From: Hyphobacterium indicum
GTDB taxonomy: Bacteria > Pseudomonadota > Alphaproteobacteria > Caulobacterales > Maricaulaceae
Direction of reading: 5' to 3'
Assembly: GCF_003129605.1 (NCBI RefSeq)
Contig: NZ_QBDX01000004.1
Coordinates: 248,001 to 312,000, forward strand
Length of the DNA: 64,000 bases
The position numbers and the translations under genes were made by a program. Below, one piece after another: positions 11,253 to 62,578 of this stretch; position 1 is the stretch's first letter, and each line of letters starts with the position of its first letter. The notes under the pieces are model-generated. The model saw nothing but the letters and a program-made list of their open reading frames with translations, made no database searches and was not told where the DNA came from.

Positions 11253-11505
11253 GGCTATTTCCTCTTTTCAAAATCACGTCGCACACCATGCATGGGTGTT
11301 TCATTTATCTGATATGCCCATAAATCATATTTCATACGTAGTGTAAATAATGGGTATATACGTTTTCCTATTTACCCGAGTATTATCTACTGACCAAAAC
11401 CCACGCCTCCAGATTTCTTTCCTGATATATCGTGTGTATATGTTGCGTATCGAACCAATCATGCCGGGTTTGCGAACCGGCCGGGTCGATACAGGGAGAG
11501 ATCAC
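11253..11505. promoter_or_regulatory. AT-rich divergent intergenic region between the cassette and hicB
   Basis: About 250 bases without a supportable gene, clearly AT-rich: 22 of 60 bases at 11281-11340 are G or C by hand count. It must hold the promoters for the leftward three-gene cassette and the rightward hicB. Short A/T-rich stretches suitable for -10 elements occur (tataatgggt-like and gatatatcg), but I could not fix a promoter. An open frame from 11350 reaches hicB without an internal RBS and lacks HicA features. Confidence 0.4.
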
Positions 11506-11922
11506 ATGAGCGGATTATTTGTTGCGCTCGTTCATACGGACGGGGCCGGAAGCTATGGCGTGTCATTTCCTGACGCGCCGGGCGTGGTGGCGGTCGGCAG
11601 GAGCATTGAAGAGGCCCTTGAATCCGGCCGCAAGGGCCTGCGGTCGCATTTCAACGCCTTGCAGGATGAGGGCTTCGACGTGCCGGAGGCCCGGCCGCTG
11701 GAAGACGTGATCAATGATCCGGCATTTGCTCACGACCGGGCGGAGGCCATTCTGGTTTCCACCATCGCGCCCGCGCCGAAAACCGGCAAAAGCCTGAGGA
11801 TCAATATCAGCATTGACGAGTTTCAATTGGAGCGCATCGACAGCGCCGCCCGCAAATCCGGCCTGACCCGCTCGAAATTCCTGGTCGAAGGCGCACTCAG
11901 GAGTGCGGACATCGAGGCCTAA
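11506..11922 (+). CDS. HicB-family antitoxin-like protein (no HicA found)
   Basis: A 138-residue HicB-type protein. The N-terminal half has the degenerate RNase-H-like fold of HicB (YGVSFPDAPGVVAVGRSIEEALESG), and the C-terminal part has a ribbon-helix-helix segment (RINISIDEFQLERIDSAARK followed by SGLTRSKFLVEGAL) for operator binding. HicB normally neutralises the small mRNA interferase HicA encoded next to it. No HicA-like frame of about 60 residues is visible within 250 bases on either strand, so this is an orphan antitoxin or regulator. The RBS agggagag supports the start. Confidence 0.8.
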   Translation: MSGLFVALVHTDGAGSYGVSFPDAPGVVAVGRSIEEALESGRKGLRSHFNALQDEGFDVPEARPLEDVINDPAFAHDRAEAILVSTIAPAPKTGKSLRINISIDEFQLERIDSAARKSGLTRSKFLVEGALRSADIEA

Positions 11923-12048
11923 GGCCGCGCCCACCTGCCGGCAGAACAACGCCCTTCCTATCCCCGCCGCCCTCTGCGGCATTAAACTGCCCGGTGGAGC
12001 TGACCGTAACCGGTGCAGACCGGCATATAGGGCCGGGGGCCGCAAATG

Positions 12049-12110
12049 CCGGAGAATCCGGAGTCATTGGAGGATAAAACCGGAGTCACTGGAGGAAAAA
12101 CCGGAGTCAT
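12049..12110. repeat. Tandem short repeat, about 21 bases, 2.5 copies
   Basis: The unit CCGGAGTCAYTGGAGGAWAAAA occurs at 12058-12079 and 12080-12100 with two differences and a one-base length change, followed by a partial third copy CCGGAGTCAT (12101-12110) and preceded by a shorter relative, CCGGAGAAT. Each full unit carries GGAGGA, a Shine-Dalgarno-like core. There are no spacers between units, so it is not a CRISPR array. It lies upstream of the candidate leader peptide and the symporter gene. Confidence 0.75.
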
Positions 12111-12136: not shown

Positions 12137-12232
12137 ATGAAGTCAGGACAGGAGATCCCGGTGTCCGGGCTGCACCCATCGCCGGAAATTATAGTAGTCG
12201 TAGTAGGAGACTCTTTTCTTGCAGAATTATGA
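12137..12232 (+). CDS. Candidate 31-residue Ile/Val-rich leader peptide
   Basis: An ATG at 12137 opens a 31-codon frame ending ten bases before the symporter ATG. It contains SGLH (12164-12175) and then IIVVVVG, encoded ATT ATA GTA GTC GTA GTA GGA (12188-12208). Six consecutive branched-chain codons just before a gene are characteristic of attenuator leader peptides. The same order, SGLH then IIVVVVG, is encoded in frame upstream of the methyltransferase near 62.4 kb. No T-run terminator hairpin lies between this peptide and the gene, so classical attenuation is not supported. Translation is unproven and the RBS is weak. Confidence 0.4.
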   Translation: MKSGQEIPVSGLHPSPEIIVVVVGDSFLAEL

Positions 12233-12242
12233 GACATTTTGA

Positions 12243-13574
12243 ATGACCGAGCCCAAACGCATCCGCACAAGAGACCTCCGCAAGAAGCTGGAAAGCTGGA
12301 TTCGCGGCCGGCTGTGGGCGCAGGTCATCACCGCGCTTGTCCTCGGTGCCGGCCTCGGCTTTCTGATCGGTCCGGATACCGGCCTCGTCAGCGCCGAAGC
12401 GGCGGATCTGGCCGGGCGCTGGCTGGCCCTGCCCGGCGGCCTTTTTCTCAACCTCATCCAGATGGTGCTGATGCCGCTGGTCGCCGCCTCCATCGTGCTC
12501 GGCCTCGCCGCCGGGGCCTCCGACCCGGAAAAGCTGCGCCGCCTCGGCGGACGACTCGCCCTCTATATCACCGGCACCACCCTGTTTGCCGCCGCCCTGG
12601 GCGCAACACTGGCGCTCTGGTTCCGGCCGGGGCTTTCGGTCGTGACCAACCCCATGCCACTGCCGCGCCTGCGCCCGGACCCGGAGACGCTGACCGACCC
12701 TCTGACCGAAGCCGCTACGCGCGCGCCCGACCTCATCGCCCGCATCGTGCCGTCCAACCCGCTCGACGCCGCGGCCAACAGCGAGATGCTCGCCATTGTC
12801 GTGTTCTCGATCTTTGTCGGCCTCGCCTTCGTCGCCTCCAGCAATCAGGCACGCCTCGCGCCGCTGAAGCAATTGTTCGAGGCCATGCTGGAAGTCTCGA
12901 TGACCGTGGTGAAATGGGCCATGCACATCACCCCGCTGGCCGTGTTCGGCCTCACCGCCCAGCTCGTCGCGCGCATGGGCGTTTCGGCGATGACCACGCT
13001 GGCTGCATATGTCGGCCTCGTCCTCGGCGGGCTGGCGCTGTTGCTCATGCTCTATGTCGGGCTGGTCATGGTGCTGGGGCGGATGGGCCCCGTCACTTTT
13101 CTGAAAGCCATCTTCCCGGTGCAGCTTCTGGCGTTTTCAACCTCCTCGTCGGCCGCCGTCATGCCGCTGTCGATGGAAACCGCCCGCAACCGGCTGGGCA
13201 CGCCGGGCGACACCGCCAGTTTCATCATTCCGCTCGCCGCCACCATGAACATGGCCGGCACCGCGCTCTACCAGGCCATCGCCGTGATTTTCGTGGCGCA
13301 GGTCGCCGGGGTCCAGCTTTCCCTGCCGGAAGTCTCGCTGATCGTGCTCAGCCTTGTCGCCGCCTCCATCGGCGCGCCGGGCGCGCCGGGCGTCTCCATC
13401 GCCATCCTGTCGGGCATGCTGGCCAGCTTCGGCATCCCGGCCGCCGGGCTGGTCTTTGTCATCGGCGTCGACCGGCTGCTGGACATGTCGCGCACCGTCG
13501 TCAATGTCACCGGCGACCTCGCCGCCTGCCGGATCCTGTCGCGAAATCAGGGAGAAACGGAAACCGGACATTAA
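12243..13574 (+). CDS. Dicarboxylate/amino acid:cation symporter (DAACS family)
   Basis: A 443-residue inner-membrane transporter of the GltP/DctA family, which imports dicarboxylates or acidic amino acids with protons or sodium. Family signatures: the serine-rich reentrant loop STSSSAAVMPLSMETA, the TM7 motif AATMNMAGTALYQA (NMDGT-type, with Ala for Asp), and the second hairpin IGAPGAPGVSIAIL, followed by the TM8 Asp in VIGVDRLLDMSRTVVNVTGD, where Arg/Asp/Asn residues normally contact substrate. Substrate cannot be named. It follows the repeats and candidate leader peptide; the RBS is poor, which leaves room for translational coupling. Confidence 0.9.
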   Translation: MTEPKRIRTRDLRKKLESWIRGRLWAQVITALVLGAGLGFLIGPDTGLVSAEAADLAGRWLALPGGLFLNLIQMVLMPLVAASIVLGLAAGASDPEKLRRLGGRLALYITGTTLFAAALGATLALWFRPGLSVVTNPMPLPRLRPDPETLTDPLTEAATRAPDLIARIVPSNPLDAAANSEMLAIVVFSIFVGLAFVASSNQARLAPLKQLFEAMLEVSMTVVKWAMHITPLAVFGLTAQLVARMGVSAMTTLAAYVGLVLGGLALLLMLYVGLVMVLGRMGPVTFLKAIFPVQLLAFSTSSSAAVMPLSMETARNRLGTPGDTASFIIPLAATMNMAGTALYQAIAVIFVAQVAGVQLSLPEVSLIVLSLVAASIGAPGAPGVSIAILSGMLASFGIPAAGLVFVIGVDRLLDMSRTVVNVTGDLAACRILSRNQGETETGH

Positions 13575-61537: not shown

Positions 61538-62377
61538 CTAGCCTTCGTCTTTCCGCCGGGCGATGACCTCGATCACCATGGGCGTGGTCAGAACGCTGTC
61601 CGGATCCGCCGCGCGTTCCTGCATGATGGTATGGAATCGTTCCGCATCTTCCGCGCTCAGAAAGCCCAGCTCCACCAGGCGGTCGATGCCGTCGGATTTG
61701 AGCCAGCCGACCGGCCATTCCCAGACCAGCTCGCCCGGCCGCGTGGTGAAAATGTGCGGCGTCATGAATTCCGTGGTCCAGCCAACCCGGCGGCACAGGG
61801 CCGGAAGCTGCTTGGCGATATTCGGCTCGCCGCCAAAGGCGCGCCAGCTCTTCTTGACCGCCGCGATGAAGCGGTCCTGGACCGGATCGGCGGGGAAAAA
61901 TCCGAAGGTTTCATAATGGCCGTATTCATGGGCGATGAACCGGCCGCCGGGTTTGAGCGCGGTTTGCAGGCGCTCGAACAGGCCTTGCGGATGGGGAAGG
62001 AAGGACAACACCCAGCGCGACCAGATCATATCCACGCTGTTGTCTGGCAGGACCAGCTGTCCCAGATCGGATTTCACGGTCTCGATATTGATCAGCCCGC
62101 GTTGTTTGGCGCCCGCATTGACGGCATCCAGAAACAGCGCCGACTGATCGACCGCAATCACCTTGCCGGACGGACCGACGAGTTGCGCCAGATCAAAGCT
62201 GGCATGGCCCGGCCCGCAGCCGATATCAAGCACGGTCATGCCCGGTTTCAGCCCGGCCCGCCGCCATCCGGCGAGGGCTCGTTCGCGCCAGATGGCGTGT
62301 TGCTGGCCGAGGCGCAGGATTTCCTGCTGGCTGGCCCCGATGATGTAATCATCTTCCGGGAGGGCGGTCTGGCTCAT
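61538..62377 (-). CDS. SAM-dependent methyltransferase
   Basis: A 279-residue class I methyltransferase: TVLDIGCGPGHASFDLAQLV (motif I, about 60-79), VIAVDQSALFLDAV and SDLGQLVLPDNSVDMIWSRWVLSFL (motifs II/III). RBS gggga and the usual length favour MSQTALPEDDYII as start. The same frame is open up to 62500 and would add 41 residues containing SGLH and IIVVVVG, a signature also seen before the symporter gene. Substrate unknown; related proteins methylate small molecules or quinones. Confidence 0.8.
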   Translation of the reverse strand: MSQTALPEDDYIIGASQQEILRLGQQHAIWRERALAGWRRAGLKPGMTVLDIGCGPGHASFDLAQLVGPSGKVIAVDQSALFLDAVNAGAKQRGLINIETVKSDLGQLVLPDNSVDMIWSRWVLSFLPHPQGLFERLQTALKPGGRFIAHEYGHYETFGFFPADPVQDRFIAAVKKSWRAFGGEPNIAKQLPALCRRVGWTTEFMTPHIFTTRPGELVWEWPVGWLKSDGIDRLVELGFLSAEDAERFHTIMQERAADPDSVLTTPMVIEVIARRKDEG

Positions 62378-62437
62378 CTGCTTATCCCCGCAATGCGGCG
62401 TGAATTGCCACATTTTTCCAGTTTTTGCGTTTTCGAC

Positions 62438-62500
62438 TCCTACTACTACTACAATTATGGCGGTAGCAGCAGGACCGGAATGCAGGCCGGACGGGGACAT
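62438..62500 (-). other. Candidate leader peptide region before the methyltransferase
   Basis: On the minus strand an ATG at 62500 leads into SGLH (62480-62491) and IIVVVVG (62438-62458; ATA ATT then four GTA and GGA). This repeats the peptide signature encoded before the symporter gene near 12.2 kb. Here the frame continues without stop into the methyltransferase. The rest of 62378-62578 holds no other feature I can support. Confidence 0.45.
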
Positions 62501-62578
62501 AATGACGCCAGCGGCGCCAGTCTACCACCCGGAAGATGCGCCGGGGATTACGCCTCCGCGAACCGCAGGTGAAGCGCC

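Follow-up and report, generated by a model that had tools for sequence, protein, structure and literature searches.

Most leader peptides known to us are single devices, each placed before a biosynthesis operon. Escherichia coli IvbL contains a Val run similar to that of the element described here, and peTrpL is a Trp attenuator leader found at one locus and equipped with a terminator. This peptide of the alphaproteobacterium Sinorhizobium is active beyond its own operon (PMC7298713). GTAG-type REP/RAYT elements are dispersed intergenic repeats that carry GTAG (PMC2817692, PMC3733652, PMC8266576), and the enterobacterial RU sequences are mobile intergenic units, 100–170 bp long, in which reading frames are on record (PMC2759123).

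We analysed two related sequences, copies A and B, in a 64,000-nucleotide stretch of the Hyphobacterium indicum genome (hereafter, the window). The reading that we favour, tentatively and at a little under even confidence, takes A and B as members of a family of about ten intergenic elements in this genome: a dispersed, lineage-specific cassette that joins a promoter to a small open reading frame (ORF) and, at loci where a gene start lies ahead of it, serves as a translated leader. No title or abstract opening listed from the literature searched, which consisted mostly of papers open without subscription, describes this element, and no paper was found there that combines Marinicauda with small RNA.

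Copies A and B in the window

The 31-codon frame of copy A is present as the original prediction had claimed, its stop lying ten bases 5' of the symporter ATG at 12243 (Table 1), and the phase of its ATG is matched in two orthologs (L093 and L233). Upstream, its neighbour is a gene for a HicB-like antitoxin (11350–11922; PF15919). Copy B, on the minus strand, likewise reads as described, with ATG 62500, SGLH, seven codons and then IIVVVVG at 62458–62438. The proposed DNA kinship of the two also held and comes down to one shared motif, (GTN)n-GTAGTAGGAG(A/T)C; in the window, the DNA motif for IIVVVVG gives four matches with up to three mismatches (two overlapping matches per copy), compared with 0.02 expected from shuffles. 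As originally stated, neither downstream gene serves branched-chain amino acid (BCAA) biosynthesis, Pfam naming a symporter and a methyltransferase, and the absence of a T-run terminator was borne out, a scan of these two copies finding no terminator-like site near either.

Table 1 Coordinates of the features of copies A and B in the window and the basis for each
Feature	Position	Strand	Basis
Copy A small ORF	12137..12232	+	ATG 12137, 31 codons (MKSGQEIPVSGLHPSPEIIVVVVGDSFLAEL), TGA 12230-12232
Copy A Ile/Val codon run IIVVVVG	12188..12208	+	Sequence; codon-position variation
Copy A conserved core GTCGTAGTAGGAGAC	12197..12211	+	Motif searches, base composition of copies
Copy A promoter-like box CTATCCCC, upstream of second box	11958..11965	+	Two-block scan score 19.0; none of 1540 shuffled controls as high
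Copy A second promoter-like box TAAACTG	11983..11989	+	17 nt from the CTATCCCC box; two-block scan
Copy A direct GGAG repeats	12051..12108	+	Sequence; ~10.5-bp phasing over genus copies (period scan)
Gene downstream of copy A	12243..13574	+	PF00375 sodium:dicarboxylate symporter (Pfam)
Copy B Ile/Val codon run IIVVVVG	62438..62458	-	Sequence
Copy B conserved core GTAGTAGTAGGAGTC	62435..62449	-	Motif searches
Copy B promoter-like box TAATCCCC, upstream of second box	62543..62550	-	Two-block scan score 18.0
Copy B second promoter-like box TAGACTG	62518..62524	-	18 nt from the TAATCCCC box; two-block scan
Copy B open frame through methyltransferase	61538..62500	-	Gene's own ATG 62377; PF13847 methyltransferase domain

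Other parts of the prediction have to be given up. Copy B does not encode a leader peptide of its own: the frame lacks a stop and continues in phase into the methyltransferase, in all three species fetched. SGLH, put forward as a signature, is missing from both fetched orthologs of A and, of two B orthologs, occurs in that of G005 and not in that of G007. The chance of some common four-residue word in two random open stretches of the size of the SGLH peptides is P ~0.004; the orthologs of A and B rule out SGLH as a signal. Of the notion that A and B are a matching pair, the shared motif survives and the pairing does not, there being one DNA motif that recurs genome-wide. The same recurrence excludes a chance likeness between the two.

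Distribution, anatomy and turnover of the cassette

The DNA motif is found well beyond A and B, with 11 distinct sites in the window's genome, 10 of them intergenic and 1 inside uvrB on the opposite strand. Searching this genome (2.79 Mb, 4 contigs) with up to two mismatches yielded 15 partly overlapping matches versus 1 in a reversed control, and a second pattern added one site. We take the uvrB site to be a chance match and not a copy of the element. The core reappears without a mismatch on the reverse strand of uvrB coding sequence in this genome (L004:1507-1521); the gene has the UvrB interaction domain (Pfam), and its coding strand reads, by eye, Ser-Tyr-Tyr-Asp-Tyr-Tyr, presumably a conserved UvrB motif. 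uvrB was rejected as a member or target since the site is a coding motif and the second-genus copies deviate from the uvrB sequence.

Among 60 relatives searched with at most one mismatch, the same-genus genomes G004, G005, G006 and G007 gave 6–13 matches each, and two genomes of a second Maricaulaceae genus gave 21 (G021) and 25 (G035, Marinicauda pacifica). G001–G003 had 0 or 1 match, those of G002 and G003 lying inside a predicted gene that is uvrB-like by eye, and the remaining relatives had 0–8, similar to the reversed control. Within the family Maricaulaceae, the GAGTC form alone was matched in 7 of 137 genomes, from 3 of 19 genera. Across the species collection, 97 stretches contain the exact core pattern, with 80 loci listed; 11 of the listed loci were viewed in context, of which 5 have the element (three M. 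pacifica, one Oceanicaulis and one MAG) and 6 are unlike it, and open-frame length alone was computed for the others. No long relative lacking the core turned up when one long unit served as BLAST query, except for a piece at the end of a G006 contig, the neighbouring contig of which has a core.

The analyses below use 78 copies (10 from the window's genome, 9 from G007, 8 from G005, 5 from G006, 7 from G004, 20 from G021, 18 from G035 and 1 from the Oceanicaulis genome G028). Dropped before counting were the genic sites L004, L109, L111, L116, L119, L228, L239 and L240, of which L116 may be a real copy, and also L090, L098, L100 and L104; 3 of the 25 G035 matches were left out of the set, and L252 stands outside the counts.

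On one strand, the cassette runs in the order TTATCCCC-N17/18-TANACT, a spacer and an Ile/Val run ending GTA-GTA-GGA-G(A/T)C, nearly invariant. The two-box block, TTATCCCC-N17/18-TANACT(G/C), lies about 75–270 nt upstream on the same strand, and the block-to-run spacer of about 40–200 nt abounds, within the genus of the window, in GGAG repeats with helical phasing. With a matrix built from these same sites, 60 of 77 same-strand upstream stretches scored ≥16.5 (one of the 78 copies being too close to a contig end), compared with 1/77 on the opposite strand, 0/77 downstream and 1/77 downstream on the opposite strand; the 1540 null sequences were plain base shuffles, and the strand and side controls were separate from these. 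The counts support a strand-specific promoter-like block. At copy A, the block is also found in the orthologs from G007 (score 18.5) and G004 (score 19.5). The block search exposed an additional G035 copy that the core pattern had overlooked (L252), and the other matches viewed from that search have no core. A 16S model search, run for the idea of an rRNA promoter, gave no match in five genomes. L078 was omitted from the promoter scan and the base-composition, fold and period analyses and was included afterwards; L115, L121 and L231 were also omitted from the fold and period analyses.

In the window's genus, distances between GGAGs cluster at 9–12, 20–22 and 30–33, with a best period of 10.5–10.75 (R=0.63, 169 pairs), a period that was scanned for among copies that are not independent; the second genus shows no such phasing (37 pairs). 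In 38 copies (7,328 nt), GGAG occurs 153 times and CTCC 26 times; the core contributes one GGAG to each copy. By position, 25 of 34 three-repeat GGAG matches in G000, G004, G005 and G007 are inside elements; in total, such matches outnumber the reversed control in G004 and G007 alone and are no commoner than reversed in G000 and G005. Likeness between two G004 paralogs is confined, by eye, to the stretch from CTTATCCCC (the first TTATCCCC) through the final TTTATCCACGC, which marks the ends of the unit there. As to the run itself, GTA makes up 0.038 of 678 Val codons in the genes of the window, compared with 71 of 195 run-region triplets in the genus. Here the last two Val codons and the Gly codon hold A at the third position, and third positions with G are nearly absent from the run, which Val codons alone do not predict. 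Together with TAG triplets, TTATCCNC resembles what we take to be a DnaA box with a DnaA-trio, an origin-like unwinding site; the middle base of these triplets is variable in the copies.

Copies have been both gained and lost, as follows from shared and unshared loci and from the occupancy of one site. The two genera have no locus in common at which neighbour and side both agree; the few weak cross-genus BLASTP matches (25–42% identity) pair genes on different sides. Between G021 and G035, the downstream gene is common at four loci (BLASTP), plus queA by eye. On the 3' side of ftsK, the element is present only in G028 and G035 among the 30 loci viewed, and G021 is without it; at least four of these (L277, L279, L281 and L283) were not counted as empty sites since the stretch viewed looks gene-internal. 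A Y1/RAYT-type transposase (PF01797) is absent from all seven multi-copy genomes and present in 2 of the 25 genomes searched, neither of them a multi-copy carrier; its absence from carriers rules out RAYT/REP membership. The G021 copies span 0.1–3.03 Mb, with 5 of 6 on the plus strand below 1 Mb and 13 of 14 on the minus strand above it (14 of 20 minus in all); for a replichore bias in this genome, sampled GC skew gave no usable pattern.

Some observations concern RNA genes or RNA-like stretches near the element. At G035 contig ends, L260 and L261 hold nearly the same sequence, several hundred bases long and apparently noncoding, and in both a TTATCCCC-N-CATACTG block of the promoter-like kind precedes it; L259 of Oceanicaulis G028 is a looser relative; none has an Rfam match at E≤1, and L260/L261 are possibly rRNA leaders or another RNA. 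A tRNA-Ser (TGA) gene (L262:1055-1142) lies about 100 bases before a G035 copy. In L242 (G028), GCTCTTTGACATCTTGAA, which resembles what we take to be an rRNA boxA, stands between promoter block and core, and GCTCTTTCTCA occupies that place in several M. pacifica copies.

Reading frames and neighbouring genes

Codon-level patterns indicate that the Ile/Val run is likely to be translated at most loci. The nearest ATG is in the frame of the run (the V frame) at 32 of the 44 loci with an ATG upstream (P=1e-7; 52 loci, 8 without ATG), and at 26 of 38 when seven similar M. pacifica copies are collapsed to one (P=1e-5), in statistics that take loci as independent though some copy one another. Counting all ATGs between the presumed transcription start and the run, the share in phase is 46 of 62 for the window's genus and 23 of 39 for the second. 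This phase test makes translation likely, short of proof. So does the variation of run codons between orthologs within the genus, which over 11 loci is greatest at the third position (16, 19 and 35 of 55 for positions 1, 2 and 3; P=4e-4), the outcome of a codon-position check that the original prediction had proposed. At five second-genus loci the bias is not significant (10, 10 and 16 of 25; P=0.15), nor is it upstream of the run (19, 26 and 30 of 105; seven ortholog or paralog pairs).

The frame is not kept everywhere. The nearest ATG is out of frame at 10 of 30 second-genus and 2 of 14 first-genus loci, 8 further second-genus loci have none, and in single orthologs of B, C and I the ATG is out of frame or missing. 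Stop positions vary even between orthologs, and past the core the G007 ortholog of copy A differs in length by one base. A control-codon run within a translated leader frame, by which BCAA attenuators are judged, is thus seen statistically and not at every locus.

Of the 78 copies, 77 have a called downstream gene, which is co-directional in 38 cases and convergent in 39, so a leader acting in cis cannot hold for every copy. Where the neighbour is co-directional, the V frame is fused or coupled to it at 14 of 24 loci and the other two frames are so at 13 of 48 (P=0.010), coupling being a frame end within 14 nt before to 10 nt after a gene start; these starts may be off, since flanking genes were called with a simple custom caller. 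The original prediction of a dispersed leader element with perhaps coupling-based control is partly upheld, in its dispersal and in a coupling-like link to co-directional genes; as a cis leader it cannot account for every copy.

Individual loci illustrate the variation. At thyA, the V frame is fused in G021 and not in G035, and in G007 and G004 the stop of the A frame overlaps the next gene as ATGA. The gene after the A-type copy in G004 is not the symporter and has, by eye, a DsbA-family-like beginning. In this copy (L233), the parts known from copy A (promoter block, core and start region) precede a different gene from that in G000 and G007, which indicates that the unit or the gene was exchanged. 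One copy, in reverse orientation, separates flgA from flgH, and its neighbours are homologous across four species. Neighbours named by Pfam comprise the symporter, methyltransferase, GST, MarC, SDR, thymidylate synthase, FlgA, FlgH, class-I aldolase and FtsK. No BCAA gene is among these Pfam-named neighbours, which cover the genes after A and B and nine neighbours of other copies (one of the nine, of 398 aa, has no family); the remaining neighbours were judged by eye only.

Possible roles and relation to known systems

A DNA-level explanation, in which the phased GGAG repeats and the GTAGTAGGAG core are the target of a binding protein and the codon-like periodicity is incidental, would account for the helical phasing in the window's genus (R=0.63), the excess of GGAG over CTCC (153 versus 26), the mixed orientation relative to genes and the A kept at the third position of the last two Val codons and Gly. 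It does not predict the excess of in-frame ATGs, however, and the second genus has no phasing (37 pairs); moreover, the period came out of a scan over non-independent copies, and arrays of three repeats are no commoner than reversed in G000 and G005. We consider such a nucleoprotein site unlikely. The ATG frame bias also argues against a mobile or copied MITE-like repeat with no host role, as do the lack of a Y1/RAYT-type transposase in the seven multi-copy genomes and the intact cores at orthologous loci with diverged spacers (at sites chosen by core). That copies were gained and lost, at the loci shared by G021 and G035 and at the ftsK site, and that the two G004 paralogs are alike only within CTTATCCCC-TTTATCCACGC, by eye, are what such a repeat would leave behind, and we give it a low probability.

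It seems improbable that each copy is an independent gene for a small or dual-function RNA with targets in trans. The strand-specific promoter-like block of their own and the half of the copies with no co-directional gene to control would suit this idea, and a trans-acting leader peptide is known in Sinorhizobium (PMC7298713). Against it, the fold signal is weak or absent (mean z of -1.2 over 38 copies and -0.2 over 35 copies), no terminator-like site was found at A or B, and Rfam gave no match over the window at the gathering threshold and no leader family in 14 element loci at E≤1 (18 loci searched, with one tRNA ~0.1 kb from an element and two sub-threshold matches). A short palindrome directly 3' of GTAG, a mark of GTAG-REP/RAYT elements, is clear by eye in L242; the unpaired-probability profile shows no general hairpin. 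Structured RNA has no clear support from Rfam or fold analysis. CsrA (PF02599), a possible partner of GGA-rich RNA, was found in 0 of 6 genomes versus 3 of 14 control genomes, which rules out a CsrA decoy, and trans-pairing with uvrB mRNA is contradicted, since all 38 second-genus copies differ at one position from the GGAGAC that uvrB has there. Still less probable, to the point of being very hard to credit, are true BCAA attenuators of the ivbL/ilv kind. The Val/Ile run that ends in Gly and is rich in rare GTA, as well as the similar Val run of E. coli IvbL, would speak for this kinship; it does not stand up against the unrelated named downstream genes (symporter, methyltransferase, GST, MarC, SDR and thymidylate synthase), the convergent half of the copies, the missing terminator at A and B, the lack of an Rfam leader family or clear fold, and the absence of a BCAA gene among the Pfam-named neighbours.

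We return to the dispersed promoter-plus-small-ORF cassette. RNA synthesis would begin at the promoter-like block, and a ribosome entering the small ORF would be slowed at the rare GUA codons and the internal, SD-like GGAG. Expression of a co-directional neighbour would then depend on translation through the run, as suggested by the frame often ending at, or being fused to, the gene start; facing a convergent neighbour, the cassette would yield a short translated RNA, possibly antisense. A bolder version, which we regard as doubtful, is that a lineage of Alphaproteobacteria has carried a portable cassette to 10–20 unrelated loci. At these, ribosome pausing or Val/Ile-tRNA supply during translation of the rare-codon run would set the expression of coupled or fused genes and, at convergent sites, antisense transcription, making a leader-peptide regulon by copying and not by operon structure. 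If so, a promoter-plus-leader unit copied to many loci, mostly in frame, would be a route to a translation-sensing regulon, and the convergent copies would call for a new role of leader ORFs.

Like the enterobacterial ivbL and ilv leaders, the cassette has a short, probably translated frame with a Val/Ile run that ends in Gly, contains rare codons and, at some loci, precedes a gene; unlike these attenuators, it has no terminator at A or B, is followed by unrelated genes and exists in many copies, half of them convergent. It differs from peTrpL in its roughly ten copies and, at A and B, in having no terminator. With the GTAG-REP elements it shares dispersal, intergenic position and GTAG, and is distinguished by its low copy number (~5–20), promoter-like block and small ORF, with no Y1 transposase in the seven multi-copy genomes and no hairpin abutting GTAG as a rule. 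The RU sequences resemble it as small dispersed intergenic units with reading frames; the cassette belongs to another clade and has another sequence, and its conserved part is a codon run that follows a promoter-like block.
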